A stretch of DNA of 64,000 nucleotides from Hyphomicrobiales bacterium. GTDB taxonomy: Bacteria > Pseudomonadota > Alphaproteobacteria > Rhizobiales > Methylopilaceae. The notes below the pieces were generated by a model. It was not told the DNA's origin. It ran no database searches and saw nothing but the letters and a program-made list of their open reading frames with translations. The stretch lies in contig JALHQA010000002.1 of NCBI GenBank assembly GCA_022842205.1, forward strand, positions 248,001-312,000, given 5' to 3'. The position numbers and the translations under genes are program-made. How positions within the stretch are numbered: the first letter of the stretch is position 1; the number at the start of each line of letters is the position of its first letter. Positions 17,929 to 45,090 of this stretch are shown here, one piece after another.

Positions 17929-18002
17929 TGGGGAATAGTTCAACGGTAGAACTGCGGACTCTGACTCCGTCAATCTAGGTTCGAATCCTAGTTCCCCAGC
18001 CA
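17929..18002 (+). tRNA. tRNA-Gln (anticodon CTG)
   Basis: A complete 74-base cloverleaf. The acceptor arm TGGGGAA pairs with TTCCCCA, followed by G and an encoded CCA. The D-arm contains AGTTCAACGGTAGAACT, the anticodon stem GCGGA/TCCGT encloses the loop CTCTGAC with anticodon CTG, and the T-arm is CTAGGTTCGAATCCTAG. The T-loop and 3' end mark the start of a repeated block that recurs at 24747, so this gene is the likely integration target of the accessory region that follows. Confidence 0.96.
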
Positions 18003-18221
18003 CACCTAAGTTATTGATATATAAGCGTTTTATGACTTCCAATGTACTTACCATAACCCTCGGTAAGTACGAGGGAATTGGCACCCTCGCCTGTCTCTGG
18101 CCGCCAGGTCTTGGGCCGATTCCTGGCACTTTCGGGTCGCACCCCGTCGAAATTCTCTAGGCCCCGAAATCCATTTCGTTTGTGCCCGTTTTCGATGCGA
18201 AACGATGCATTCTGATGGTCG
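18003..18221. repeat. R1 repeat, copy 1 (abuts tRNA-Gln 3' end)
   Basis: Starts at the base after the tRNA CCA and is repeated at 24767-24986 in the same orientation. The first ~75 bases are similar, sharing AAGTTATTGATATATAAGC. From 18079 to 18221 the two copies are identical by eye over 143 bases. A perfect nine-base inverted repeat (GTACTTACC at 18044-18052, GGTAAGTAC at 18062-18070) lies inside. There is no credible ORF. Best read as one end of an integrated element or cassette; a conserved RNA or regulatory role is the alternative. Confidence 0.85.
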
Positions 18222-18272
18222 TGACCGCCGTTTTCACGGCTGGAACGTTTGCCAAATGTCGGAAACCTCTCT

Positions 18273-18289
18273 CTGGCAATAGGTTACGC
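18273..18289. repeat. Short R2 core at left boundary of gene block 1
   Basis: CTGGCAATAGGTTACGC matches the first 17 bases of the R2 repeat at 24681 in 15 positions. Together the two bracket the six-gene block 18312-24660 exactly, as a recombination core would. The similarity is short, so chance cannot be excluded for this copy on its own. Confidence 0.5.
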
Positions 18290-18311
18290 TAGGTCCGCGG
18301 TTCAAGAGCGG

Positions 18312-19073
18312 CTATCTGAAATGCTGGGCCAGCGCTTCCGCGCCGCGGGCTAGAATGCCGGAGTCCGCGCCGACGGCCGTGTAGATGCACCCTGAATCAA
18401 TGTAGCGGCGCGCAAGATTTTTGTCCCCTGTAAGGATGCCGGCGCGGCTTCCCGACTTCGCAATCCGGCCAATCAGGCCCTCGATAAGCGTTACGACCTT
18501 CTCGTTTCCCTGATCGCCAAGAAATCCGATCGCGGCCGAAAGATCGCCCGGACCGACGAACACGCCGTCCACGCCGGGCACGGCGGCGATCGCTTCGAGA
18601 TTTTTGACCCCGAGTTCGGACTCGATCTGCACAAGAACGCAGATCTCTTCGTGAGCACGGCTGTAATAATCCTTGACCCGCCCATAGCGCGATGCGCGCG
18701 AAGCCGCAGCGAACCCGCGCGTCCCGTGAGGCGGATAGCGCGTGTACGATACGGCGGCCGCCGCCTGTTCCGGCGTTTCTACCATCGGGATGAGGAATGA
18801 CTGGACGCCGGCATCCAGGAAACGCTTCACCAGCACCTGATCATTTTCCGCCGGCCGCACGACCGGATGCGTACGATGTTCCATGCAGGCGTGAAGTTGA
18901 TGCACGACCATAGGCAGTTCGTTGGGAGAGTGCTCGGTGTCGATCAGCATCCAGTCGAAACCGGAGCCTGCGAGAATCTCGACAGTGATATGACTGGCGA
19001 GGCTGCTCCAGATACCTATCTGCTGCTCGCCGGCATAGATGCTGCGCTTGAAATGGTTCACCGGTAATTCCAC
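18312..19073 (-). CDS. HpcH/HpaI-family class II aldolase
   Basis: A 253-residue metal-dependent pyruvate aldolase of the 2-keto-3-deoxy acid type, cleaving or forming C-C bonds with pyruvate. Motifs are GFDWMLIDTEHSPNE (residues 38-52), VVRPAEND with the active-site arginine, FLIPMVETPEQA, YPPHGTRGFA, VQIESELGVKNLEAI and GVDGVFVGPGDLSAAIG. The metal-ligand E and D are present. It is last in an operon with an IlvD/Edd dehydratase and a TctABC transporter, so the likely route is sugar acid to 2-keto-3-deoxy acid to pyruvate plus an aldehyde. The exact substrate is not known. Confidence 0.9.
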   Translation of the reverse strand: MELPVNHFKRSIYAGEQQIGIWSSLASHITVEILAGSGFDWMLIDTEHSPNELPMVVHQLHACMEHRTHPVVRPAENDQVLVKRFLDAGVQSFLIPMVETPEQAAAAVSYTRYPPHGTRGFAAASRASRYGRVKDYYSRAHEEICVLVQIESELGVKNLEAIAAVPGVDGVFVGPGDLSAAIGFLGDQGNEKVVTLIEGLIGRIAKSGSRAGILTGDKNLARRYIDSGCIYTAVGADSGILARGAEALAQHFR

Positions 19074-19085
19074 TGCCCGCTCCGC

Positions 19086-20825
19086 TCAAAAAATGTCGGG
19101 CTCGCCGACTGGCGCGCCGAATGTGGTTTCAAGGAAATCGAAGTCGCAGCCTTCATGAGCCTGCTTGATGTGTTGCGAGAACATCCAGCCATAGCCGCGT
19201 TCGAACCGCGCAGGCGGCAACGCAAGCGCGGCAGCACGGCTCGCGAGCTCGGCATCGTCGACCAGCATGTTGATGGAACCGCCTTCAACATCGACGGCGA
19301 TTAGATCACCCGTCCGCAGCAGCCGCAGCGGACCGCCGACATGGCTCTCCGGCGAGACATGAAGTATGCACGCGCCATAGCTTGTTCCGCTCATGCGACT
19401 ATCGCTGATGCGCAGCATGTCGCGCACTCCGGCCTTTACCAATTTTTTCGGGATCGGCAGCATGCCCCATTCCGGCATGCCAGGGCCGCCGAGCGGACCA
19501 GCGTTGCGGAGCACGAGGATATCGTCGGCTGTAACATCGAGATCGTCGCGATCGATCTGATCCTTCATCGACGGATAATTGTCGAACACAAGCGCGCGGC
19601 CGGTATGCTTCCGGAGATGCGGCGCGCAGGCGCTCGGCTTCATCACGCAGCCATCCGGCGCAAGGTTGCCGCGCAGCACCGCGAGCGCGCCGTAAGGGTA
19701 GATCGGGTTATCGAGCGGACGGATGACATCGTCGTTGAAGACTTCTGCCGTCGCGATGTTATCGCCAAGCGTGCGGCCGTTGACGGTCAATGCATCGAGA
19801 TCGAGATGCGGCGCGAGTGTCTTCTGAAGCGCGCGGAGACCGCCGGCGAAGTAAAAATCTTCCATCAGATATTCGTTGCCGCTCGGGCGCACATTCGCGA
19901 TCACCGGAATACGGCGCGCCGCTTCGGCAAAATCGTCTAGCGTGATCGCATGTCCGGCTCGCCGTGCCTGGGCGATGAGGTGGATGACGGCATTCGTGGA
20001 ACATCCCATCGCCATGGCCACGATGATTGCATTCTGGAATGCTGCGCGGGTCTGCACACGCGAGGGCACCAGATCATCCCAGACCATCTCGACCGCGCGC
20101 CGCCCTGTCTCCGCGGACATGCGAATATGCTCGGCATCCGCGGCCGGTATGGACGATGCGCCGGGCAGCGTCATACCGATGGTTTCGGCGATGGCGGTCA
20201 TCGTGCTTGCGGTTCCCATGGTCATGCAGTGGCCATGGCTGCGGGCTATGCCGCCTTCGATCTCGAGCCAGTCCTGATCAGTGATGTTGCCGGCGCGGCG
20301 TTCATCCCAGAACTTCCATCCATCGGATCCGGATCCGAGCGTCTTGCCGCGCCAGTTGCCGGGCAGCATGGGTCCAGCCGGCAGGAAAATCGCGGGAAGC
20401 CCAGCGCTGGTTGCGCCGAGAAGAAGGCCTGGGGTGGTCTTGTCACAGCCCCCCATAAGAACGGCGCCGTCCACCGGATAGGAGCGGAGCTGTTCCTCCG
20501 TCTCCATGGCCAGCATGTTGCGGTAGAGCATGCTGGTCGGTTTTATGAAGTTTTCCGACAGCGACAGTGCGGGCAGCTCGATCGGCATGCCGCCCGCCTG
20601 GAGAACGCCGCGCTTGACGTCCTCGACCCGCTGGCGGAAGTGCGCATGGCACGGATTTATGTCGGACCAAGTATTGACAATCGCGATCAAGGGCTTGCCG
20701 GCCCAGTCCCCCGGACCATAGCCCATCTGCATGAAACGCGACCGGTGGCCGAAGGAACGCAGATCGTCGTCTGCAAACCAGCGCGCGCTGCGCAGCGTCT
20801 CCGGTGTCTTGCGGGGAGCCTTCAT
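19086..20825 (-). CDS. IlvD/Edd-family sugar-acid dehydratase
   Basis: A 579-residue Fe-S dehydratase closest in layout to L-arabinonate/pentonate dehydratases rather than IlvD itself. Iron-sulphur cysteines are visible in MGGCDKTTPG and HGHCMTMGTASTM; other signatures are NTWSDINPCHAHFR, GCSTNAVIHLIAQAR, and GPLGGPGMPEW toward the C-terminus. The frame is open far upstream into the transporter gene, but the ATG at 20825 overlaps the tctA stop (ATGA) and gives the normal family length. It presumably forms the 2-keto-3-deoxy acid cleaved by the adjacent aldolase. Confidence 0.9.
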   Translation of the reverse strand: MKAPRKTPETLRSARWFADDDLRSFGHRSRFMQMGYGPGDWAGKPLIAIVNTWSDINPCHAHFRQRVEDVKRGVLQAGGMPIELPALSLSENFIKPTSMLYRNMLAMETEEQLRSYPVDGAVLMGGCDKTTPGLLLGATSAGLPAIFLPAGPMLPGNWRGKTLGSGSDGWKFWDERRAGNITDQDWLEIEGGIARSHGHCMTMGTASTMTAIAETIGMTLPGASSIPAADAEHIRMSAETGRRAVEMVWDDLVPSRVQTRAAFQNAIIVAMAMGCSTNAVIHLIAQARRAGHAITLDDFAEAARRIPVIANVRPSGNEYLMEDFYFAGGLRALQKTLAPHLDLDALTVNGRTLGDNIATAEVFNDDVIRPLDNPIYPYGALAVLRGNLAPDGCVMKPSACAPHLRKHTGRALVFDNYPSMKDQIDRDDLDVTADDILVLRNAGPLGGPGMPEWGMLPIPKKLVKAGVRDMLRISDSRMSGTSYGACILHVSPESHVGGPLRLLRTGDLIAVDVEGGSINMLVDDAELASRAAALALPPARFERGYGWMFSQHIKQAHEGCDFDFLETTFGAPVGEPDIF

Positions 20826-22330
20826 GCCACGTCTTCCTCGAAGGCGACATCCCGCTTGCGCCGCAACGAGGGCGCCAGCACAAGTACGAGGAGTGAAATG
20901 CTGAACACCAGCATGACGGCGCTTGCGGGCCGGTTGACAAATGTCATTGGGTCGCCGCCCGAGATCAGCAATGCACGGCGCAGATACTCTTCCATCATCG
21001 GGCCAAGGATGAAGGCCAGCATCATCGGCGCTGGCTCGATCGAGAGTTTGCGCGAGATGTAGCCAAACGCGCCAAACGCGATGAGCAGCCACAGATCGAA
21101 GGTTGAATTGTTGAGGCTGAAGACGCCGATGGCGCAGAACGCCAGAATCGCCGGGTAGAGAAAATGGTACGGCACGGAAATCATGCGGACCCAAAGACCG
21201 ATCAGCGGCAGGTTCAGCACGAGCAGGAACAGATTGCCGATCCACATCGACGCGATGATGCCCCAGAAGAGCTGGGGCTGCTGCGTCATGACGAGAGGAC
21301 CGGGCTGAATGCCCTGGATCATCAGCGCACCGATCATCATCGCCATGACCGGGTTTGAAGGAATGCCGAGCGTAAGCATCGGTATGAAGGACGTTTGCGC
21401 CCCGGCATTGTTCGCGGCCTCCGGGGCCGCGACGCCTTCAATGGCGCCCTTTCCGAATTCGGCCGCGTTGGGCGACATCTTCTTCTCGAGCGAGTAAGCG
21501 CCGAAAGATGCGAGCATTGCGCCGCCGCCGGGAAGAATGCCAAGCGCGGAGCCGAGCAGCGTGCCGCGGAAGATAGGTGGAAGGATGCGTTTGAAGTCCT
21601 CGCGCGAGAGCATCAGCCCGTGCACCTTCTTGACGTCGGTGGCGCGTGTGCGTTCGACTTCGAGATTGCTGATGATCTCGCCAATGCCGAACACGCCCAT
21701 CGCAACGACGACGAAGGCGATTCCGTCCATCAGCCCGAGGAAGCCGAACGTGTAGCGGAAAACGCCGGAGTTGACGTCGGCCCCGACGAGACCGAGAAGC
21801 AATCCGAGCAGGATCGCGCCTCCGGCATGCAGCAACGATCCGCTTGCGAGCACGATCGATGCCACGAGGCCGAGTATCATCAGCGAAAAATATTCGGTCG
21901 GGCCAAATCCGATGGCGAGATTGGCCAACGGCGGTGCGAAAAGCGCCAGGAGAAATGTCGCGATCGTGCCGGCGATGAAGGATCCGACCGCGGCCGTCGC
22001 CAGCGCCTTTCCGGCACGGCCCTGCCGCGCCATCTGGTAGCCGTCTATCGCCGTAACGACGGACGAGCTTTCTCCCGGAAGATTGACGAGAATGGATGTT
22101 GTCGATCCGCCATACTGCGCACCGTAGAAAATGCCGGCGAGCATGATGAGCGCCGACACCGGATCGAGGCCGAACGTGATCGGCAAAAGAACAGCAATTG
22201 TAGCTGTCGGGCCAAGGCCGGGCAGAACGCCGATGGCCGTGCCAAGAACGACGCCGACGAAACAATAAAGAAGGTTTGGGCCCGTCAGTACGGTTTCGAA
22301 CCCGAGAATGATACCGAGAAGCGAATCCAT
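20822..22330 (-). CDS. tctA: Tripartite tricarboxylate transporter, large permease TctA
   Basis: The large membrane subunit of a TTT-family secondary transporter, 502 residues with about eleven to twelve transmembrane segments. Signatures: GTAIGVLPGLGPTATIAVLL, FYGAQYGGSTTSILVNLPGE, and the second-half GSALGILPGGGAMLASFGAY with AAEFGKGAIEGVAAPEAANNAGAQ. The start at 22330 (MDSLLGIILGFE) is chosen because it lies four bases after the tctB stop; an upstream extension in frame overlaps tctB. Its stop overlaps the dehydratase start, indicating coupled translation. Confidence 0.94.
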   Translation of the reverse strand: MDSLLGIILGFETVLTGPNLLYCFVGVVLGTAIGVLPGLGPTATIAVLLPITFGLDPVSALIMLAGIFYGAQYGGSTTSILVNLPGESSSVVTAIDGYQMARQGRAGKALATAAVGSFIAGTIATFLLALFAPPLANLAIGFGPTEYFSLMILGLVASIVLASGSLLHAGGAILLGLLLGLVGADVNSGVFRYTFGFLGLMDGIAFVVVAMGVFGIGEIISNLEVERTRATDVKKVHGLMLSREDFKRILPPIFRGTLLGSALGILPGGGAMLASFGAYSLEKKMSPNAAEFGKGAIEGVAAPEAANNAGAQTSFIPMLTLGIPSNPVMAMMIGALMIQGIQPGPLVMTQQPQLFWGIIASMWIGNLFLLVLNLPLIGLWVRMISVPYHFLYPAILAFCAIGVFSLNNSTFDLWLLIAFGAFGYISRKLSIEPAPMMLAFILGPMMEEYLRRALLISGGDPMTFVNRPASAVMLVFSISLLVLVLAPSLRRKRDVAFEEDVA

Positions 22331-22334
22331 GAGC

Positions 22335-22799
22335 TCAGCCGCCGAACCACGTGCCCAGAAGCGGCATAGGTACGTGCAGCCAATGCACGAAAACCAGCGC
22401 ACAGAGCGCAACGAACGCGACGAGACAAAGCGCGGCTTTGATGTCGGGGCGGAAGTGACAGCTCGCTGCGGCGCCGATGAGCATCAGCGCAGTCAGGGCA
22501 ATGGGGAGGCCAAGCGGTTCGACAGTGAGCGCGAAAACAGCGATAGAGCCGAGAATGAAGAGCGCGGGCTTCCAAGCCAATTGCGTGACCGAATCTCCTG
22601 GCGCAAGGAACGCGCGCACTACCGAGGCAACACCGAAACAGGCCAGCAGCGCCGACAATGCCATCGGGAAGTAGCCTGGGCCCATCGCCGCCGCCGTTCC
22701 CAGACGGTAGCCGGACCCGATGTACAGGCCGATCACGGCAAAGGCGAGATAGAGCAGGCCCGCCCACAAGTCCCGCGTATTTTGAATGGATAGATTCAT
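22335..22799 (-). CDS. tctB: Tripartite tricarboxylate transporter, small permease TctB
   Basis: A 154-residue protein with four hydrophobic segments (about residues 12-30, 43-62, 77-107, 118-142) and the conserved GTAAAMGPGYFP motif near residue 34, typical of TctB. It forms the membrane part of the transporter together with TctA, which starts four bases downstream. The order is tctC-tctB-tctA on the minus strand. Confidence 0.9.
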   Translation of the reverse strand: MNLSIQNTRDLWAGLLYLAFAVIGLYIGSGYRLGTAAAMGPGYFPMALSALLACFGVASVVRAFLAPGDSVTQLAWKPALFILGSIAVFALTVEPLGLPIALTALMLIGAAASCHFRPDIKAALCLVAFVALCALVFVHWLHVPMPLLGTWFGG

Positions 22800-22852
22800 G
22801 GTCGAACTCTGAGCTGCGGCGGCACGGTGTCACCGTGCCGCCAGCGCTGCGG

Positions 22853-23821
22853 TCAATTGGCCGTGATGTTGCCGTCCTTGACGACCTGACGCCAGCGCGC
22901 CTCTTCCTCGGCCTGGAACTTCGCAAACTCCTCCGGCGTGTTCGCGACCACCTCGAAGCCCATTTCCTCGAAACGCGCGGACACTTGCGCATCCTTTGCG
23001 CCACTGGCGAGGCCTTCCGCGAGCTTTGCCTTTACGTCGGCGGGAAGACCCTTCGGTGCCCCGGCGGCCTGCCAGGAATATACCGTCACGCCATCGACAC
23101 CCGCTTCCTTAAGGGTCGGCGTATCCGGGAATACCGGATTCCGCTCGTCTGCCGTTACAGCGAGCACCTTCAGCTTGCCCGCCTTGATGTGGCCGGTAAC
23201 CGCGCCGAGATTCTGGAATGACACATTGGCGTGGCCGCCGATGAGGTCGGCAATGGCCGGGCCACCGCCCTTGTAGGGAACATGCACACCGCTCGTTCCG
23301 GTCTTCTGCCAGAACAGCGCCGCTGTCAGATGGTCGGACGACCCGTTGCCGGAGGAGGCAAAGGTCACCTTGTTAGGGTTCTTCTTCAGATAATCGACCA
23401 GCTCCTGAACCGTGTTCGCTGGAAATTCCGGGTTGGCCACGAGCACGTTCGGGGTTCGCACAAACACCGTGAGCAGATCGAGGTCCTTCGACGGGCTGTA
23501 GGGCAAGTCAGGAAAAAGCGCGGCATTGATCGCGAATACACCGATCGAGCCGACGAGGAGCGTGTAGCCATCCGGCGCGGCTTCCTTGACGATCGCGGCA
23601 CCGGTGGAGCCGTTCGCACCCGGGCGGTTTTCGACGACGACCGGCTGGCCAAGCGCTTCCTGAAGTTTCGGCGCAACGGAACGCGCCGTGGTGTCGGATG
23701 CGCCCCCGGGCGGAAATGGCACGATGATGGTGATTGGTTTTTCGGGGAAGCCGGCAGCAAAGGTTGGCGCGGCCACGAGCGCTGACAGGACAGCCAGCGA
23801 GGCAAGTTTAAAGCGGTTCAT
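22853..23821 (-). CDS. tctC: Tripartite tricarboxylate transporter, periplasmic binding protein (TctC/Bug)
   Basis: High-affinity periplasmic solute receptor of the Bug family, 322 residues. A signal peptide (MNRFKLASLAVLSALVAAPT, cleavage near TFAAG) precedes FPEKPITIIVPFPPGGASDT, the ligand-loop signature, then NRPGANGSTGAAIV and the central YKGGGPAIADLIGGHA. The ATG at 23821 has a GGAGGAAA site directly upstream and is preferred over one four codons earlier. It is first in the transporter operon and divergent from the GntR regulator. The ligand is probably a carboxylate or sugar acid, inferred from the neighbouring enzymes. Confidence 0.93.
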   Translation of the reverse strand: MNRFKLASLAVLSALVAAPTFAAGFPEKPITIIVPFPPGGASDTTARSVAPKLQEALGQPVVVENRPGANGSTGAAIVKEAAPDGYTLLVGSIGVFAINAALFPDLPYSPSKDLDLLTVFVRTPNVLVANPEFPANTVQELVDYLKKNPNKVTFASSGNGSSDHLTAALFWQKTGTSGVHVPYKGGGPAIADLIGGHANVSFQNLGAVTGHIKAGKLKVLAVTADERNPVFPDTPTLKEAGVDGVTVYSWQAAGAPKGLPADVKAKLAEGLASGAKDAQVSARFEEMGFEVVANTPEEFAKFQAEEEARWRQVVKDGNITAN

Positions 23822-23904
23822 GTTTCCTCCCACGGAATGATTTTCGCCGGGTGGACCGCAGACCGCGCCCGGCTGACTGTTTGACAGTCCTCGCCACTAA
23901 AGCG

Positions 23905-23916
23905 CTAATGCATTAG
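23905..23916. promoter_or_regulatory. Palindromic operator in the tctC/gntR divergent region
   Basis: CTAATGCATTAG is a perfect 12-base palindrome, flanked by further half-sites (CACTAA before, TTAGTGG overlapping its end). It lies in the 131 bases between the divergent tctC and GntR genes. FadR-type GntR proteins bind short dyads of this size, so it is the likely operator for the whole catabolic block. Confidence 0.65.
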
Positions 23917-23952
23917 TGGAGTCAATCGCGATTATCCGCTATAGGACAGTCG

Positions 23953-24660
23953 ATGAATCTTCCGGCCCCCTCTTCCACGACCCAACCGGTACGTGATCGT
24001 TCGCGGCACGCCGCTCCGCAGGTGTTCGACTATCTGCGCGAGCAGATCATCAGCTTGGCCATGCCGCCAGGAACACTGATTTCCAGACAGTCCCTTCAGG
24101 ATCTTTTTGGCTTCAGCTCCACGCCCGTGCGGGACGCGCTGATGCGGTTGCAGGAGGAATCGCTTGTCGAGATTTTTCCGCAGCATGCGACAGTTGTAAG
24201 CCCGATCGATCTGCGGCTGGCGCGGCAGGCACAATTTCTCCGCCGCTCGCTGGAGCAGGAGTGTGTCCGTACGATAGCCGCAAACCCGGACCGATCAGTC
24301 GCGGTCGTGCAGCTTGAAGCAATGATCGAGCGCAAGCGGCGTATACTGACGTTGGACGATCTTGAAGCCTTCAACCAGGCCGACCAGGATTTTCATAGAA
24401 TCCTTTTCGATGCGTCAGGCGTTCCCGATTTGTGGGTTTTCGTGCGCCGACAGAGCGGACACATTGATCGGATTCGCCGCCTTCACCTCCCTGTTCCCGG
24501 AAAGGCGGCACAAATCATAGCCGATCACGCCGCCATCGTTGCGGGCATCGAATCTGGCATTCCTGAGCAAGCAGAAGCTGCGCTACGCAACCATTTATCC
24601 CGGTCCTTGGCCTTCACTGACGATTTGCGCGCCCGGTGGCCGGACTACTTTCGGGATTAG
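23953..24660 (+). CDS. GntR-family transcriptional regulator (FadR/FCD subfamily)
   Basis: A 235-residue regulator with an N-terminal winged helix at about residues 20-85 (QVFDYLREQIISLAMPPGT, then FGFSSTPVRDALMRLQEESL) and a C-terminal all-helical FCD ligand domain. The FCD metal-site pattern is visible as DFHRILF, DH in IADHAAIV, and NHLSRS near the end. It is divergent from tctC and very likely represses the transporter and catabolic genes until a pathway sugar acid binds. It is the last gene of block 1; the R2 repeat follows 20 bases after its stop. Confidence 0.92.
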   Translation: MNLPAPSSTTQPVRDRSRHAAPQVFDYLREQIISLAMPPGTLISRQSLQDLFGFSSTPVRDALMRLQEESLVEIFPQHATVVSPIDLRLARQAQFLRRSLEQECVRTIAANPDRSVAVVQLEAMIERKRRILTLDDLEAFNQADQDFHRILFDASGVPDLWVFVRRQSGHIDRIRRLHLPVPGKAAQIIADHAAIVAGIESGIPEQAEAALRNHLSRSLAFTDDLRARWPDYFRD

Positions 24661-24680
24661 GCGAGCCGGTGAAAAGTATT

Positions 24681-24739
24681 CTGGCAATAATTTACGCGAA
24701 ATTCCCTCGACATTTCGGAGGCTTAGGAATCACGAGTGC
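24681..24739. repeat. R2 repeat, copy b (right end of gene block 1)
   Basis: A 59-base sequence from CTGGCAATAA to CACGAGTGC that aligns without gaps to 27420-27478 with about 51 of 59 positions equal. It contains a small hairpin (CCTC...GAGG). It lies between the GntR stop and the tRNA-like fragment at 24747. Confidence 0.82.
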
Positions 24740-24746
24740 AAGTCGA

Positions 24747-24766
24747 GTTCGAATGACCCCCAGCCG
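24747..24766 (+). pseudogene. Degenerate tRNA 3' end (T-loop to acceptor)
   Basis: GTTCGAAT followed by CCCCAGCC reproduces the T-loop and 3' end of the intact tRNA-Gln at 17979-18001, with the T-stem changed and several bases lost. It directly precedes R1 copy 2, just as the real tRNA precedes R1 copy 1. This is what a tRNA-targeted integration leaves at the far end of an insert. Confidence 0.65.
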
Positions 24767-24986
24767 CACCCAAGTTATTGATATATAAGCATTTTCAAAA
24801 CTTCAAATGCACTTACCATAATCCTCGGTAAGTACGTGGGAACTGGCACCCTCGCCTGTCTCTGGCCGCCAGGTCTTGGGCCGATTCCTGGCACTTTCGG
24901 GTCGCACCCCGTCGAAATTCTCTAGGCCCCGAAATCCATTTCGTTTGTGCCCGTTTTCGATGCGAAACGATGCATTCTGATGGTCG
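24767..24986. repeat. R1 repeat, copy 2
   Basis: Direct repeat of 18003-18221. The first part is diverged but shares the AAGTTATTGATATATAAGC stretch and the inverted repeat (GCACTTACC 24809-24817, GGTAAGTAC 24827-24835). Positions 24844-24986 are identical to 18079-18221. The remaining bases up to 25150 are unique and presumably carry the promoter of the next operon; no other feature is seen in this 490-base gene-free stretch apart from the R2 copy and the tRNA fragment. Confidence 0.85.
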
Positions 24987-25150: not shown

Positions 25151-26410
25151 ATGGCAAAACTGTTACGCGAGGGCGTGACGGCTCTCGATCTGACGATGCG
25201 GCTGACTCTGGGTATCCTGGCGCTCGCATCGGGTGTTTACACCTATCTCGGCGTCCGGGAGCTTCTCGACGGCTCGGCCGTGATGGTTTCGTTTGCGGCC
25301 ATCATCTACTCAACTGCTGTTTCGGTCGCGATCTACGCCTTCTGGTCGTTCCTGATGCGATTTCTGCCGCAGATGCGGGAAGCCACGAGCCGCGTCTGGC
25401 TAGCGGGGGCGATGGTGCTCGGCTCGCTGATGATCGTCGCCATGTCGTCATGGCTCAATGCCGCTGCCCTGGCAGGCGCCGCCGCAATCGAGCAGCACCT
25501 CGCGACGACAGTCCAGGCATACACACGCGACCTCGATCAGGCGCATCAACGCGCGCTCGGCGCCCAGAGTTTGCTGCCCGACATTCAGCTCGCCAGTTCG
25601 CGCTTCGCACGACTGGCCGACGCCGAACGTCAGGGCGCACTTACAGGGACGGGTGGCTCGGGCACTGTGGTGCAGCTTTTGACCCAGATGTCGACGCAAC
25701 TCGACGAGCTCGGCCGCGAGGTCTCCGGCAGCGCCGAACCTGTAAAGACCCTTTATGCCGAAGGCAGCGCGCATATCGCCAAAATGCGCGAGCTTGTCTC
25801 GGCCCAGGGCGACATCAAGGCGCGAAGCGATGCATTCGGAGCGGAAGCAATGAAGCTCATTGGCGCCATTGCTTCGCTCGAACAGGCATCGATGGCGCCG
25901 GCCGTGAAACGCGCAGCGGATGATTTGGCCAAGACCTTTATCGCGCCGGCAGCTGATGGCGGGACCGCAGAACTCGTGGTGCGGCAGAATCGCGTCGTCG
26001 GAAACGTCGAGAAGGCTGTTGCAGCGCAAGCCAGCGCCCTCTCCCGCGCGGCAGCCGACATTGTTGGCGGAGGACCGGTGGAGCCGGCACGCTTCCAGCC
26101 GCTTTCAACCGCCGAGGCCGTGTTGCGGTATGCGGGCGATTTCCTGCCGAGCTGGGCGGGCGCGATTTCGATCGATCTTTTGCCTGCGGTCCTGGTGCTG
26201 ATCCTCTGTGTGGTCCACGCCGCCATTCGCAAGGATGAAGATCCGACGGAAGGTGAAACGATGACGGCCGCCCAGCTCATCACAGCCATCCGTCTCTTGC
26301 GCGAGGTCGAGGACGAGAGGCTTGTTCCGTCGGGTACAGCAGCGGCGATTGCCGCTGCTGACGACGGCGTCGTTACCGCTATCACCACGCGGAGCGGCAA
26401 AAAGGAATGA
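25151..26410 (+). CDS. Membrane protein with large helical extracytoplasmic domain, function unknown
   Basis: A 419-residue protein I do not recognise. Three hydrophobic segments lie at about residues 16-34, 44-68 and 82-102. A long helix-rich, alanine-rich domain (about 110-335) with coiled-coil character follows (EQHLATTVQAYTRDLDQAHQ, QMSTQLDELGREVSG), then a fourth membrane segment around 338-362 (LLPAVLVLILCVVHAAI) and a cytoplasmic tail. Its stop overlaps the ATG of the ClpP-like protease by four bases, so the two are almost certainly one functional unit. It is the first gene of block 2 in the tRNA-Gln region. Scaffold, substrate adaptor or sensor for the protease are possible roles, all inferred. 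Confidence 0.8.
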   Translation: MAKLLREGVTALDLTMRLTLGILALASGVYTYLGVRELLDGSAVMVSFAAIIYSTAVSVAIYAFWSFLMRFLPQMREATSRVWLAGAMVLGSLMIVAMSSWLNAAALAGAAAIEQHLATTVQAYTRDLDQAHQRALGAQSLLPDIQLASSRFARLADAERQGALTGTGGSGTVVQLLTQMSTQLDELGREVSGSAEPVKTLYAEGSAHIAKMRELVSAQGDIKARSDAFGAEAMKLIGAIASLEQASMAPAVKRAADDLAKTFIAPAADGGTAELVVRQNRVVGNVEKAVAAQASALSRAAADIVGGGPVEPARFQPLSTAEAVLRYAGDFLPSWAGAISIDLLPAVLVLILCVVHAAIRKDEDPTEGETMTAAQLITAIRLLREVEDERLVPSGTAAAIAAADDGVVTAITTRSGKKE

Positions 26411-27225
26411 CGATCTCCAATAGAATTGCGGGCGCGAAAAGCAGCCTTGGACGTCCGGATGAAGTCGTGCTCCGACTTGTGTTCGGCGGTCTCATTGCGG
26501 CGACAATATACGTACTGGCGAATGACCTATACGAGCGACATCAGATGCCGGCTCGGGCCACGGAGACGCTTTTGCCGGGAGAGACGCCCCGCATCGAGCC
26601 ATTCCTTCCATCGGTACGACCGGACGTCTCGGAACCCGGCAAAGAACGCCGCTCCGCGCCCGACATCCTCCGAAAGGAAATGACGATTGAGCTTGTCGAC
26701 GACCACAGGCTCGAAGCAACTGGCACCATTACGCCGGGAACGGCAAAACGATTCCGAGCTGAAGTTGAGAAGCGCGGTAGTTACGTCAGGACAGTGGTTC
26801 TGAACTCCCCGGGCGGATCCGTGCAGGACGCTTTGGAGATGGGCAAACTCATTCGAGAGAAAGAATTCGACACGCTCGTCCCTGCCGGCGGCCACTGCGC
26901 CTCCTCCTGCCCGCTGGTCTTCTCAGGCGGTGTTCAACGGTCGGCTGGAAAAGACGCCGCGATCGGTGTGCATCAGATGATTGCGTATGGTTCGACAGCA
27001 ATGAATGGAGCGGACGTTCAGAACAGCATTCAAACGGTTTCGGCAGCGTGCCAACGTCATCTAACGGAGATGGGCGTTGATCTGAAGGTTTGGATGCACG
27101 CGATGGAAACACCGCCACAAGAGCTCTTTTACTTCACACCAAAAGAGCTTCGCGATCTCCGTCTAATATCCGCGCCGGAAGACAAGAACGTAAGCGAAAA
27201 GGCTGGTCCGGCCACCAAAGGTTAG
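26407..27225 (+). CDS. Membrane-anchored ClpP-fold serine protease (COG3904-like)
   Basis: A 272-residue protein with one N-terminal membrane segment (about residues 22-40) and a ClpP/crotonase-like domain outside the membrane. Visible motifs are the oxyanion-type VLNSPGGSVQDALEMG, the nucleophile-site segment GGHCASSCPLVFSGG, and a histidine in AIGVHQM, arranged as in ClpP and the periplasmic COG3904 family. The two cysteines around the serine may form a disulphide. Its ATG overlaps the stop of the preceding membrane protein. Base composition is less GC-rich than the flanking genes, suggesting separate origin. The target is unknown. Confidence 0.8.
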   Translation: MTISNRIAGAKSSLGRPDEVVLRLVFGGLIAATIYVLANDLYERHQMPARATETLLPGETPRIEPFLPSVRPDVSEPGKERRSAPDILRKEMTIELVDDHRLEATGTITPGTAKRFRAEVEKRGSYVRTVVLNSPGGSVQDALEMGKLIREKEFDTLVPAGGHCASSCPLVFSGGVQRSAGKDAAIGVHQMIAYGSTAMNGADVQNSIQTVSAACQRHLTEMGVDLKVWMHAMETPPQELFYFTPKELRDLRLISAPEDKNVSEKAGPATKG

Positions 27226-27681
27226 ACCTCCCACTGCCCCCCGAGCGGCCAAAAAGCATTCTTCGACGGGCGGCTCGGTTCGAGGCGGCGCGCCGCGCCA
27301 GACCGGCGGGACGATAGAAGGACCGGCGTCAGTCCGAAATGCAGCGTTTTGCAGCGAGCGCAGAGGACCCGGCATTTGCCGCGCAAGCAGCCAGTCCGAT
27401 TGGGACGCCAAAGCATTCCCTGGCAATAAGTTAGCCAAAACGCCCTCGACATTTCCGAGGCTTCGGAATCACGAGTGCTTGCCTCATACCGAGGCCTCCG
27501 CGCTGAAGGCAGAGGCTGAAGAGCTTCTTCCGAGCAATACCCTGCAAGCGATTACCGGTTTGCGAGGCGAAATGCATCCGGCGGGTATCGCATTGGCGGT
27601 TCGCCGCAGACTAATGCTGCAGGACGACAGTTCCGATCCTGCTGCTACCTGCTCGAACGAAACCAGGCAGGCTACCAACCC
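27226..27681. other. Gene-free stretch at right end of the accessory region
   Basis: These 456 bases contain the R2 copy at 27420-27478 but no credible gene; short frames on both strands lack family signatures and ribosome-binding sites. Beyond R2 the sequence does not resume with a tRNA 3' fragment or R1, so the outer end of the second unit appears eroded or ends here. Confidence 0.6.
27420..27478. repeat. R2 repeat, copy c (right end of gene block 2)
   Basis: A 59-base gapless match to 24681-24739 (about 51 of 59). It includes the CTGGCAATAA core and a five-base hairpin CCTCG/CGAGG around ACATTTC. It lies about 195 bases after the protease stop, mirroring the place of copy b after the GntR gene. 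Confidence 0.82.
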
Positions 27682-39271: not shown

Positions 39272-42200
39272 TCAGCTCACAAGCGATGGAAACGACGGGA
39301 CTTTGGTCTCGTTGGCTTTGGCTTTTTCCGTCCTGCCGTTACGTTGCAGCCAGACGCGCAGCACAGAAATCAACTGCTCCATGTCCACCGGCTTGGCTAC
39401 GTAATCCGACGCTCCAGCCTCGATGCATTTCTGCCGGTCTCCCTTCATGGCCTTGGCCGTGACCGCCACTATCGGCAGACCTGCGAAGTTCTGATGCGTA
39501 CGTATTTCCCGGATAGTTTCGTATCCGTCCATGCCCGGCATCATGATGTCGACAAGAGCTATGTCCGCATCCGGGATACGCTGCAGCAGCTCGACACCCG
39601 AGCGGCCGCTTTCCGCATAGTGCAATTCCATGCCGTGCTCCTCGAGCGCACTCGTCAGCGAGAAGATGTTCCGGATATCGTCATCGATGACAACCACCTT
39701 GCGGCCGTCGAGCACGGGATCGCGCCGACGCAATTGCTGTGTCGCTTCGCGCGCGCCTTCCGGAAGACTTTCGAACGTCCTGTGCAGCAACAACACCGCA
39801 TTGTCGTGAAGCTCGGTCAAAGTGAGGGCCACATGAAGCCGGTCGAGACGCATCAGCGCCTGCATCACCGCCTGGTCTCCGCCCGGAATAAAGGCAATGA
39901 CAGGCGTCTCGGCCGCCCGAAGCGCCTCAATGATTTCGGGCTTGGGCGGCTGCGCCGCCTCCGCAAGATCAAGGACGATGCAGTCGAAGTCTCCTTGCGA
40001 CAGAGCCCGGACGATATCCTTCGGTTTCGAGACCGAAATCGCTTCGACATCGTCCGCACCCAGCGCCTTCGCCAGACTGCCGGTCCGGGCGGCCGGCTCT
40101 ACCGACAGCAGCCGCTTCGGGCGCGCGTTGAAGTCCTTTACCCGGTCGAGAGCCGCCAGAATGGTCTCGCGCTCGACAGGCTTTCCGGAAACACCATAGG
40201 CGCCGATGCTGAACCCGAGCGTGGAGTCGTCCATGCCGGAAATGACGTGGATCGGGACATGCCGCGTCTCCGGATTGCGCTTGAGGAGATCCAGCAAGGC
40301 AAAGCCGTTCATGTCCGGCAAACCGATGTCCAGCGTAATGGCATCAAGATGGTAGCGCCGCGCCAACGGCACAACGGATGCACCCTCCGCCGTAACGATT
40401 CCCTTGAAGCCGGCTTCCCGCGCCATGCCCAGCAAGATCGACGCGAAGTGCGGGTCGTCCTCTACGATGAGCACGACCGGATCGCCGCGATTGATCTGGT
40501 CGCGGTCGTCCGGAATACGTTCGCTGGAGGTTTCGGGAAGCTGAATTCCTGCAATACCTCGCGCCGCCGATCCCTTCGTCTGCACAGGCGGAGCGAAATT
40601 GAGCGGCAAGTAGAGCGTGAAGGTCGATCCATGCCCGGGATTCGACGCCACCGTCAGCTCTCCGCCGAGCAGCCGTGTGATCTCGCGGCTGATCGAAAGC
40701 CCGAGGCCGGTGCCACCATATTTGCGGCTCGTCGTGCCATCCGCCTGCTGGAACGCTTCGAAAATCAGCCGTTGCTTGTCACGCGCGATACCAATGCCGG
40801 TATCCTCGACCGTGAAAGCAACAACATCGGCATCGCGGCCGAACTGGCCCGTCGTCCAGCCGCCCTTGGCTTTCTCTATCTTGAGCAGGACACGACCCTG
40901 CTCGGTGAACTTGAAGGCGTTCGATAGCAGATTCTTGATGATCTGCTGCAGGCGCTTGTCGTCCGTATAGATGGATTGCGGCAGTTGATCGTCGAGAGCG
41001 ATCGAGAAGTCCAGCTTCTTGTTCTGCGCGATCTGGGCAAAGGTTCTGTCCATGTCGTCGCGCAGCGAGCCGAATGAGGTTTCGCCCACATCGAGCGTAA
41101 CCGTTCCGGATTCGATCTTCGACAGATCGAGAATGTCGTTGATAAGCCCGAGCAAGTCCGTGCCTGCGTGATTGATCGTGCGCGCAAATTCGACCTGCTT
41201 GTCGCTGAGATTGCCTTGCGCATTGTCCGCCAGAAGTTTCGAAAGGATCAGCAGGGAGTTGAGCGGGGTACGAAGCTCATGGCTCATGTTTGCCAGGAAC
41301 TCCGATTTGTACTTGGACGTCAGCGCGAGCTGCTCGGCCTTGTCTTCCAGCTCCATCTTGGCCTGCTCGACCTCGCGGTTCTTGGCTTCCACGGCCTTGT
41401 TCTGCATCGACAGAAGCTGCGCCTTCTCTTCAAGCTCGGCGTTGGTGTTCTGGAGCTCGTCCTGCTTGGAGCGTAGAAGTTCTTCCGACTGGCGCAGAGT
41501 CGCCGCCTGTTGTTCAAGACGGTCGTTGGTCTTTTTCAGCTCCTCCTGCTGCGATTGCAGTTCCGCCGTCAGCAGCTGCGACTGCTCCAGAAGACCCTCG
41601 GTCCGCATATTCGCCGCGATCGTGTTCAGCACGATGCCGATCGATTCCATGAGCTGATCGAGGAAGCTGCGGTGCGTCTCGGAGAATTCGCTGAAGGAGG
41701 CGAGTTCTATGACGGCGTTCACCTCTCCTTCGAATACCGCGGGCAGCGCAATGACATTCAGAGGCGTCGCATTGCCCAGGCCGGAACTGATCTTCACATA
41801 GTCCGGCGGTACATTTTTCAGCAGAATGCGCTCGCCTTCGGCGGCGCACTGGCCGATGAGACCTTCGCCAAAGTTGAAATAGCCCGGCGGCGGACTTGAC
41901 TGATTTGACGCGTAGCTCGCAGCGAGCTTGAGCTTGCGATCGCTGTCGTCGGCCTCATGTACATAAAACACGCCGTGCTGTGCATTGACGAGAGGGGCGA
42001 GTTCCGAAAGCACCATGTTCGACACGGTCGTCAGATCGCGTTCGCCCTGCAGCATGCGGGTGAATTTCGCCAGATTGGTCTTCAGCCAGTCCTGTTCGGT
42101 GTTCTTCAGAGTCTGATCCTTGAGATTCCGGATCATTTCATTGATGTTGTCTTTCAGCGCAGCGACCTCCCCCGATGCTTCCACGGTAATGGACCGCGTC

Positions 42201-44782
42201 AGATCGCCTGTGGTCACGGCGGTCGACACTTCAGCGATGGCTCGCACCTGCGTTGTGAGATTGGCAGCGAGCTGGTTGACGTTGTCGGTGAGATCCCGCC
42301 AGAGACCGGCAGCGCCGGGCACGCGCGCCTGGCCACCGAGTTTGCCTTCGATGCCGACTTCGCGCGCAACGTTCGTCACCTGGTCGGCGAATATCGCCAG
42401 AGTATCGATCATGCCGTTGATCGTATCCGCGAGCGATGCGATCTCGCCCTTCGCGTCGACGGTAAGCTTGCGCTTGAGGTTGCCCTGCGCCACGGCGGTA
42501 ACGACGTCGGCGATGCCGCGCACCTGGCCGGTCAGGTTGGCCGCCATCATGTTGACGTTGTCGGTCAGGTCCTTCCATGTACCGGCAACGCCCGGAACGC
42601 CGGCCTGACCGCCGAGCTTGCCTTCGGTTCCCACCTCGCGCGCAACGCGGGTCACCTCCGACGCGAAGGAGTTCAACTGGTCGACCATCGTGTTGACGGT
42701 GTTCTTCAGCTCGAGAATTTCGCCCTTCACATCGACGGTGATCTTCTTTGACAAATCCCCCTTGGCGACCGCGGTCGTGACGTCGGCGATGTTCCGCACC
42801 TGACCCGTCAGGTTCGCCGCCATGCCGTTGACGTTGTCGGTGAGGTCCTTCCAGGTGCCGGCAACGCCGCGCACATTGGCCTGGCCGCCGAGCTTGCCCT
42901 CGGTGCCGACTTCGCGGGCCACTCGTGACACTTCCGAGGCGAATGCGTTCAGCTGATCCACCATGGTATTGACGGTGTTCTTCAGCTCGAGGATTTCACC
43001 GCGCACGTCGACCGTGATCTTCTTGGACAGATCGCCCGTGGCGACAGCGGTCGTCACTTCGGCGATGTTACGCACCTGCCCCGTAAGATTCGCCGCCATG
43101 CCGTTGACGTTGTCGGTAAGATCCTTCCAGGTGCCGCCCACACCCTTCACATGGGCCTGACCGCCGAGCTTGCCTTCGGTGCCGACCTCGCGGGCGACGC
43201 GCGACACTTCGGAGGCGAACGAGTTGAGCTGGTCCACCATGGTGTTGATGGTGTTCTTCAGTTCGAGGATTTCGCCTTTCACATCGACGGTGATCTTCTT
43301 CGACAAGTCCCCGTTCGCAACCGCAGTCGTGACTTCGGCGATGTTACGCACCTGACCCGTCAGGTTCGCCGCCATGAAATTCACGTTGTCGGTAAGGTCT
43401 TTCCACGTACCCCCAACGCCTTTCACCTGCGCCTGCCCGCCGAGCTTTCCCTCGGTGCCCACCTCGCGCGCGACGCGCGTCACTTCCGATGCGAATGCAT
43501 TCAGCTGATCCACCATGGTGTTGATGGTGGATTTGAGTTCAAGGATCTCGCCTTTCACATCAACGGTGATTTTCTTCGACAGGTCGCCGTTTGCCACGGC
43601 GGTCGTGACATCGGCGATGTTACGCACCTGACCCGTGAGGTTTGCGGCCATGACGTTGACGTTGTCGGTGAGGTCCTTCCAGGTGCCGGCAACGCCTTCG
43701 ACCTTGGCCTGACCGCCGAGCTTTCCTTCCGTGCCGACTTCGCGCGCCACGCGCGACACTTCCGAGGCAAACGCGTTCAGCTGATCCACCATGGTATTGA
43801 CGGTATTCTTCAGCTCAAGAATTTCGCCCTTCACATCGACCGTGATTTTCTTCGACAGATCACCTTTGGCGACCGCGGTCGTCACATCGGCGATATTGCG
43901 CACCTGGCCCGTCAGATTTGCCGCCATGCCGTTGACGTTGTCGGTGAGGTCTTTCCAGGTTCCGGCCACGCCTTCGACCTTGGCCTGACCACCGAGCTTT
44001 CCTTCGGTACCGACTTCACGCGCAACGCGGGACACTTCCGATGCGAACGCGTTCAGCTGATCCACCATTGTATTGACGGTATCCTTCAACTCGAGGATCT
44101 CGCCTTTCACATCGACGGTAATCTTCTTCGACAGATCGCCTTTGGCCACCGCCGTCGTCACTTCGGCAATGTTACGCACCTGCCCCGTCAGGTTCGCCGC
44201 CATGGCGTTCACATTGTCCGTAAGGTCTTTCCACGTCCCGGCCACTCCTTTCACCTTTGCCTGACCGCCGAGCTTGCCCTCGGTGCCGACTTCGCGCGCG
44301 ACGCGGGTCACTTCGGATGCGAAGGATCCAAGCTGTCCCACCATGGTGTTGACGACCTTTCCTATGCGGAAATATTCGCCCCGCAGCTCTCGGCCATCGA
44401 TATGGAGGTTCATGGTCTGGGAAAGATCGCCGCGCGCCACCGCGCCGATCACGCGCGCAACCTCCGCGGTCGGCTGCAGAGTATCGGCGATCAGCGTATT
44501 GACGGTCTCGATATTCGCCGCCCAGGATCCCTGGGCCTCGGGCAGCTTTGCGCGATGCCCGATCTTTCCTTCCTTGCCGACCATGTCGCCAAGCCGTTCG
44601 AGCTCTCCTGTCGTGCGCTCGTTAAGCGAAACGACATCGTTGAATGCTTCGGCGATTTCGCCGTCCACGCCCGTCAGATCACCTGGTAGACGAACCGAAA
44701 AGTCGCCCTTTCGAAAGGCACGGAGTGCGGCAAGAATCTGGCGTGACGTTAGCGACGGCGAAGAAGCAGCGGTGGCAGGCAT
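39272..44782 (-). CDS. Giant soluble HAMP-repeat hybrid histidine kinase
   Basis: About 1836 residues with no membrane span. Order: an N-terminal HAMP-like region (1-160); eight 92-residue HAMP units (161-896); GAF domain (about 911-1037); coiled coil (1038-1155); HisKA with [10 protein letters not shown]; HATPase with [17 protein letters not shown] and GGTGLGLSI; receiver 1 ([26 protein letters not shown]); a degenerate receiver-like stretch (about 1550-1683); and a final receiver ([27 protein letters not shown]). The layout resembles group III fungal osmosensor kinases and similar bacterial proteins. The ATG at 44782 is chosen because an upstream extension has low-complexity, non-conserved sequence. 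Stimulus unknown; osmotic or envelope stress is a reasonable guess. Confidence 0.92.
42095..44302 (-). repeat. Eight tandem 276-bp repeats encoding HAMP units
   Basis: Eight consecutive 276-base units within the kinase gene, each encoding 92 residues beginning [14 protein letters not shown] and containing [24 protein letters not shown] and [16 protein letters not shown]. Units 1-6 are nearly identical; 7 and 8 diverge ([28 protein letters not shown]). The protein is more uniform than the DNA, which differs at many third positions, so selection holds the sequence in addition to any duplication. Confidence 0.93.
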
Positions 44783-45090
44783 GGACCATCCCCAAAGGAT
44801 CGGATCGGTGCAGGCTTGCAAGGAGAGCCGGCGAAGAAACGGCTGACTCCGGAACGCAGAAAGGCGCCCGGACAAATGCGCCCGGTCTTCGAATCTGCCT
44901 GTCGCCGGATCTCGTTCAGCGCGCGTCCCCCAATGCAAGCGAACAAGGCTAAACGCAGTCGCGCAGGTTCTGTTCCGCGATATCAAGAATTTAAGGCAAA
45001 TGCGCTTTTCGCCTTGCGGCGACGGCCCCGGCGGTTTTAGTTTGCCTCACTTTTGCCGCTCCGCCTCTCTTCTCGAACCCGCGAGAACCC
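44783..45090. other. Divergent intergenic region
   Basis: About 308 bases between the giant kinase and the winged-helix gene, which point away from each other. It must hold both promoters. Open frames here are extensions of the kinase frame or shadows without ribosome-binding sites. No operator could be placed. Confidence 0.5.

Follow-up and report, generated by a model that had tools for sequence, protein, structure and literature searches.

Proteases of the ClpP type are known to need ATP-driven unfoldases. A membrane-held counterpart with an operon partner is known from archaea, where, as passages of PMC3795559 describe, the STOPP protease cuts its stomatin partner and has a Ser97-Lys138 catalytic dyad. 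In S. meliloti, passages of PMC3462710 present SMb20360 as a 243-aa ORF of the Clp-protease superfamily. A GUS fusion to SMb20360 was expressed in nodules (8/13 and 13/16) and in no free-living cells, mutants formed a normal symbiosis, and a tagged mutant is cited there, second-hand, as 'highly competitive' under salt plus detergent stress. Those passages describe SMb20360 alone, with no mention of a partner.

Here, we analyzed a two-gene locus in a genome of 2.78 Mb (17 contigs); by the window, we mean the whole 64,000-nt stretch of DNA in which it lies. The first gene, at 25151-26410 on the + strand, encodes a membrane protein with four candidate spans (P1; defined by ORF, alignment, AlphaFold2 model and hydropathy), and the second, at 26407-27225 (+), encodes P2, which combines a single N-terminal span with a ClpP-fold domain at residues 95-262 (ORF, alignment and model). 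The stop codon of P1 and the start codon of P2 share the 4-nt ATGA at 26407-26410 (+). A previous examination of the letters alone, hereafter the sequence-only reading, had called the two genes translationally fused; they overlap rather than being fused, and a spacing of exactly -4 was found in 6 of the 25 loci measured (the window's included), where the gap ranged from -14 to +121 nt with script-chosen start codons. We propose, with a probability of about 0.45, that P1 and P2 form an inner-membrane unit, an ATP-independent periplasmic protease module in which P1 is either the regulator or the substrate.

In 79 of the 80 genome-collection loci that were kept out of at least 506 confirmed P1 relatives, P2 comes directly after P1, and the remaining locus stops 250 nt past P1. 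When the window's genome and 100 relatives were searched, P1 was present in 23 of the 101, strongly in 22 and weakly in one; P2 adjoins it in all 22 strong cases, the window's own included and one with the pair divided over two contigs (G033), and does not adjoin it in the weak one. Similarly, a class-wide draw of 337 genomes gave nine matches to the P1 profile, five strong and four distant, with P2 in 5/5 of the former (again including the window's own) and in none of the latter. These counts favor a module and are the kind of co-occurrence survey that the sequence-only reading had named as a check.

Furthermore, the sequences themselves are conserved, with 53-83% identity to the window P1 over 24 aligned proteins and 31-58% identity to the window P2 over 25; at such identities, and across the approximately 20 named genera among the 80 loci kept, the pair is not a product of chance. 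It is real and widespread in Alphaproteobacteria. A phylum-wide draw placed P1 in 20 of 398 genomes, every one of them in the window's class, and the nearest P1 proteins among named organisms come from Pseudoxanthobacter and Ancylobacter, both Hyphomicrobiales. Plasmid records contained 139 P1 matches, mostly from Sinorhizobium and Phaeobacter, and 341 P2 matches, 137 of which covered over 80% of P2; in workable bacteria, the pair is found on S. meliloti pSymB and on the Phaeobacter inhibens plasmid pPGA1_262. The first scan of the genome collection, with P2 alone as the query, returned nothing, and the second, with another query, returned P1 relatives.

The P1 model (55-row alignment, pLDDT 83.5) is almost entirely helical. 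Its helices at 2-40, 43-71, 78-139 and 332-363 leave room for four spans, with a bundle of ~210 residues (~110-320) that separates candidate spans three and four, in agreement with the four-span protein with a coiled domain suggested before; the hydropathy scan detected three spans clearly, and the first was weak and below threshold. Positively charged residues stand at the ends expected to be inside, which points to a periplasmic helical domain and a predicted cytoplasmic tail. Within this domain, a glycine loop (E159, G162, G166, G169 and G171) is invariant. Searches of P1 against Pfam, NCBIfam, PHROGs and PADLOC gave no match above chance, and 55 members of the P1 family touched 20 Pfam families in scattered, weak matches. 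Foldseek returned no match at E 0.001; the best fold match was to designed helical bundles (Z 12.9), and the sensor domains of McpS and TorS scored Z ~10, all inside the range common for helical bundles.

The ClpP fold of P2, also anticipated by the sequence-only reading, is modeled with confidence. The hydropathy scan placed one span in total, at residues 20-38, and in the model (77 rows, pLDDT 85.9), a long N-terminal helix (17-46) precedes the domain at 95-262, which aligned with ClpP at Z ~16 over 157 residues with an rmsd of ~3; this domain is predicted to be periplasmic. Against Pfam PF00574, the window P2 scored 17.4 bits, below the gathering cut-off of 20.2, and 56 of 77 P2 proteins matched this family at E <=0.1; NfeD1b_N was matched weakly by 8/77 (best 5e-4). 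Outside ClpP, the best matches were to phage protease families, namely PHROG 26024 at 1.5e-7 and an NCBIfam head-maturation protease at 1e-5, far below its cut-off. We took these as a shared fold.

Residue conservation was counted in 79 P2 proteins, a hand-thinned set of those fetched that comprised the window, 20 loci of relatives or plasmids, 54 genome-collection loci and four class-wide loci. The window protein carries the motifs Cys164-Ala-Ser166-Ser-Cys168 and Gly-Val-His189. In 79/79, Ser166 and His189 are unvarying, as are Cys164 and Cys168, which form a CxSxC around the serine, the SPGG stretch Ser134-Gly137, and Pro169, Gly175, Arg178, Gly187, Gln209, Ala232 and Thr235; Lys is absent from the invariant and nearly invariant columns. 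The position of the ClpP aspartate, placed by its motif in alignments to Coxiella ClpP 3q7h and to genuine ClpP proteins from the window's genome and from related ones, corresponds to P2 residue 240, where a hydrophobic residue is found in every protein (L 64, I 8, M 6, V 1). The triad is therefore incomplete, we rejected a complete ClpP catalytic set, and peptidase activity is not assured. Thr235 or Gln209 might substitute for the aspartate.

Could P2 then have lost all or nearly all of its activity, its ClpP fold serving as a P1-binding subunit with a structural or sensing role and its CxSxC loop as a redox switch? The missing aspartate argues for it, and the two invariant cysteines, in a domain predicted to face the periplasm, would suit the redox element. 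On the other hand, Ser166, His189, the SPGG stretch and Arg178 would be needless in a dead enzyme, and yet they are invariant. The stand-alone ClpP-like paralogues also count against it, as 25 of their 26 loci (L002, L044-L068; 2-4 kb each) have the same CxSxC layout and one lacks it. None of these loci contains P1. We consequently abandoned the flanking cysteines as the mark of a special protease, although they are present as the sequence-only reading had said, and we regard an inactive P2 as a somewhat unlikely explanation. The window's own genome has one of these paralogues (L002) as its second ClpP-like gene with CxSxC, and its locus likewise contains no P1. In the class-wide draw, the P2 profile at E 1e-10 matched 36 of the 337 genomes; the five P1-linked P2 proteins scored at least 159 bits and all other matches below 90, which indicates that the wider P2 family is mostly stand-alone and that the P1-linked proteins are set apart in score.

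How might a ClpP-fold protease be controlled in a compartment that is free of ATP? In the protease module that we favor, P1 and P2 would act as one inner-membrane unit, in which the single span holds P2 and places its ClpP-fold domain in the ATP-free periplasm. P2 would probably be a Ser-His peptidase (Ser166, His189), its active-site loop framed by the disulfide-capable CxSxC. P1 would take the place of the unfoldase of cytosolic ClpP, its helical domain sensing a change in the envelope and either gating P2 or presenting substrates to it. Alternatively, P1 might itself be cut by P2, with the signal passing through the P1 spans and the cytoplasmic tail. The direction of the effect may be a restraint of survival under envelope stress. 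Because P2 has an N-terminal span, a tetradecameric barrel with an AAA+ unfoldase is unlikely.

In S. meliloti, there is a reported link between P2 and a phenotype. The P2 orthologue of strain 1021 comprises 261 residues if it starts at its first Met and 243 if it starts at the second, and genes for a phosphatase and an iron-transport ATPase lie downstream of the P1-P2 pair; a passage of PMC12542648 names SMb20362 as a phosphatase and SMb20363 as an iron-transport ATPase. This match in length and gene order is strong evidence that SMb20360 is the P2 orthologue. The reported salt and detergent phenotype ties P2 to the envelope, as the suggestion of stress control had it, and together with the expression in nodules it speaks for the protease module. 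However, the claim is second-hand in the passages of PMC3462710, concerns one mutant and describes a gain rather than a loss of fitness. An EcfG-type stress promoter gave no signal upstream of the pair, which also counts against the module: the strict pattern occurred in 0/103 and the loose one in 3/103, compared with 1.15 in shuffles and 3/82 inside P1. The literature searched for the pair, the gene names and COG3904 did not describe P1-P2 as a pair; beyond SMb20360, the passages returned on the pair or COG3904 were one unrelated mention of COG3904 and one on neighboring gene numbers. A table row of PMC8457355 lists a Rhizobium 'membrane-bound ClpP-class protease'.

A contrast to the pairing comes from eight distant P1 relatives (G069, G158, G196, G206, G223, G247, G389 and G425). 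P2 was nearby in none of the seven that can be judged, a point against the module, and the eighth (L167, from G223) stops at a contig edge. Of the five relatives that were aligned, four keep the glycine loop E-x2-G-x3-G-x2-G-x-G of the window P1, some with a one-residue insertion, and G069 keeps it in part. A genome of the same order as G206 (G809, locus L206) contains a full P1-P2 pair, and the distant relatives added no new plasmid hosts.

Three of these loci raise the possibility that the pair derives from a conjugation module, as a remnant or a side branch of it. P1 would then be a partner of VirD4-type coupling proteins and would have recruited a protease, for example to keep the conjugation machinery or incoming pili in check. 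In L207 (3562-7334, -) and L208 (3696-7223, -), a VirD4/TraG coupling protein is encoded two genes after the P1 relative and on its strand, and the small protein between them matches no Pfam family in either locus; in L166, the P1 relative lies ~2.7 kb from such a protein, and an integrase and ArdC are present. The occurrence of the pair in different places in near relatives also agrees with this origin. However, only 3/8 of the distant relatives show the association, and none of the neighbor families of the canonical pair, judged by example sequences, looked secretion-like, and we consider a conjugative origin quite improbable. At L168, the next gene after the P1 relative encodes a protein that has one span, carries HEIGH and matches M48 below threshold. 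This protein is likely to be another peptidase in the partner position, which argues for the protease module. An IetS-like subtilase and an IetA-like ATPase (L168, 5745-8886, -), a defense pair, lie ~3.3 kb from this P1 relative.

The surroundings of the canonical pair change from genome to genome. The largest neighbor family was present in 10/82 loci within 4.5 kb of the pair and in 14/83 when entire loci (up to 17 kb) were considered, counts that rest on crude ORF calls and leave out one 24-locus family antisense to the pair. In two congeners and a genome from the same order, the match to the window at the pair's place is confined to the pair; their other matches to the window are at the family level, in a stretch near 52 kb and in the TctC gene. 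P1-P2 is an obligate-looking pair without a widely shared neighbor, and this, together with the match of the pair alone in near relatives, fits a self-contained unit, as the sequence-only reading had supposed. Might P1 and P2 instead be housekeeping proteins that are merely co-transcribed and make no contact? P1 is better conserved than P2 and a complex is not in evidence, but the linkage persists where no other neighbor is widely conserved, and we consider simple co-transcription a poor prospect.

In a P1 tree of 50 rows (43 of them from the 80 kept loci), congener G003 stands apart from the window and G002; the forks of this tree are not strongly supported, so that it does not show transfer of the pair. 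In 4/80 loci scanned to 1.1 kb (L072 Ala, L073 Ala, L099 His and L145 Ser), P1 is preceded on its own strand by a tRNA gene at a distance of 0.2-1.0 kb, perhaps more often than by chance, with two of the four loci being close relatives; tRNA sites are thus not the rule. In Phaeobacter inhibens (L191, 7233-12349), the pair has an MgtC/SapB gene on one side and a lytic transglycosylase gene on the other, with STAS and ATP-binding genes near it, and a gene that is MgtC-like by eye follows the pair in four Aurantimonas/Jiella loci. Elsewhere in the window, 39272-44986 (-) encodes a 1904-aa hybrid histidine kinase with eight HAMP stretches, GAF, HisKA, HATPase and two receiver domains, and its gene contains repeats at 42156-44354 with offsets that are multiples of ~276 nt.

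In the window, the pair belongs to the second of two tandem modules whose outer edge is a tRNA-Gln (CTG) gene at 17929-18002 (+). The neighboring module (18003-24757) holds genes for an HpcH/HpaI aldolase, an IlvD/Edd dehydratase, TctA, TctB, TctC and a GntR-FCD regulator, and it has the same ends. The left end of the P1-P2 module (24758-24986, +; 229 nt) is 95% identical to 17994-18221, a copy that begins in the last nine bases of the tRNA-Gln gene, and its right end (27410-27478, +) is 84% identical to 24673-24739 over a 69-nt stretch whose core was expected 0 times in shuffles. The bases before the second left-end copy, where the left end starts, read as an apparent degraded tRNA-Gln 3' end. 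The tRNA-Gln gene is thus followed by a first left end, the catabolic block and a first right end, and then by the tRNA remnant, a second left end, P1-P2 and a second right end; no third tRNA remnant was seen after the final right end in the window. Each end has exactly two good matches in the window's genome; in relatives, the left end was not found in the 20 searched, and matches to the right end were short and limited to three congeners. The mobile-looking cassette of the sequence-only reading is partly borne out, by its repeated ends and the tRNA-Gln gene; however, no recombinase was found among the genes of the two modules, including the six proteins scanned in the neighboring one. P1-P2 is the only gene pair seen between its own ends, and the same ends also frame the 6.7-kb catabolic block. 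It is plausible that this is a tRNA-side site where recombination between the shared ends has exchanged cargo or added one load to another.

An anti-phage or abortive-infection role, which a two-gene unit with a protease-like member and the IetAS-like pair near one P1 relative could bring to mind and which had been listed before as defense, is very unlikely and was dropped as a main reading, because neither P1 nor P2 has a PADLOC match, P1 has no phage record and appears in the viral collection on one contig of unproven nature that ends 173 nt past P1, too short to judge P2, and the nodule expression and cited stress phenotype in S. meliloti (passages of PMC3462710) point elsewhere.

If the protease module is real, a conserved periplasmic ClpP with a dedicated membrane partner would represent control of the ClpP fold without ATP. 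A bolder version, which we consider unlikely, is a new kind of envelope protease built on an Asp-less, disulfide-locked periplasmic ClpP, in which a helical membrane partner replaces the ATPase as the driver; the P1 family would supply membrane scaffolds that can be exchanged for one another and that are also used by VirD4 coupling proteins of conjugative elements and by an M48-like peptidase. The proposal is testable at once, as the pair is present in S. meliloti and Phaeobacter inhibens and a P2 mutant with a reported stress phenotype exists; the few distant P1 relatives near conjugation genes pose a second question.

Among the known systems that P1-P2 resembles is STOPP/NfeD1b with p-stomatin (PH1510/PH1511), likewise a pair of genes, one for a serine protease held in the membrane and the other for its membrane partner. 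However, the archaeal enzyme uses a Ser-Lys dyad, whereas P2 has no invariant Lys, and its partner is a stomatin (SPFH), whereas SPFH/Band 7 is absent from the 20 Pfam families touched by the 55 P1-family members. With cytosolic ClpP (S14, PF00574), P2 shares the fold, the SPGG stretch and the positions of Ser and His; it differs in lacking the Asp, in its N-terminal span and in the score of the window protein below the Pfam cut-off, and an ATP-driven unfoldase would be impossible for a P2 in the periplasm. The stand-alone periplasmic ClpP-like proteins, for which COG3904 is the label of the sequence-only reading, have the same CxSxC around the serine, but they score lower on the P2 profile and have no P1. 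Since STOPP/stomatin already provides a ClpP-class protease of the membrane that is encoded in an operon with its partner, P1-P2 is best seen as a variant of that arrangement in which both the chemistry and the partner differ.
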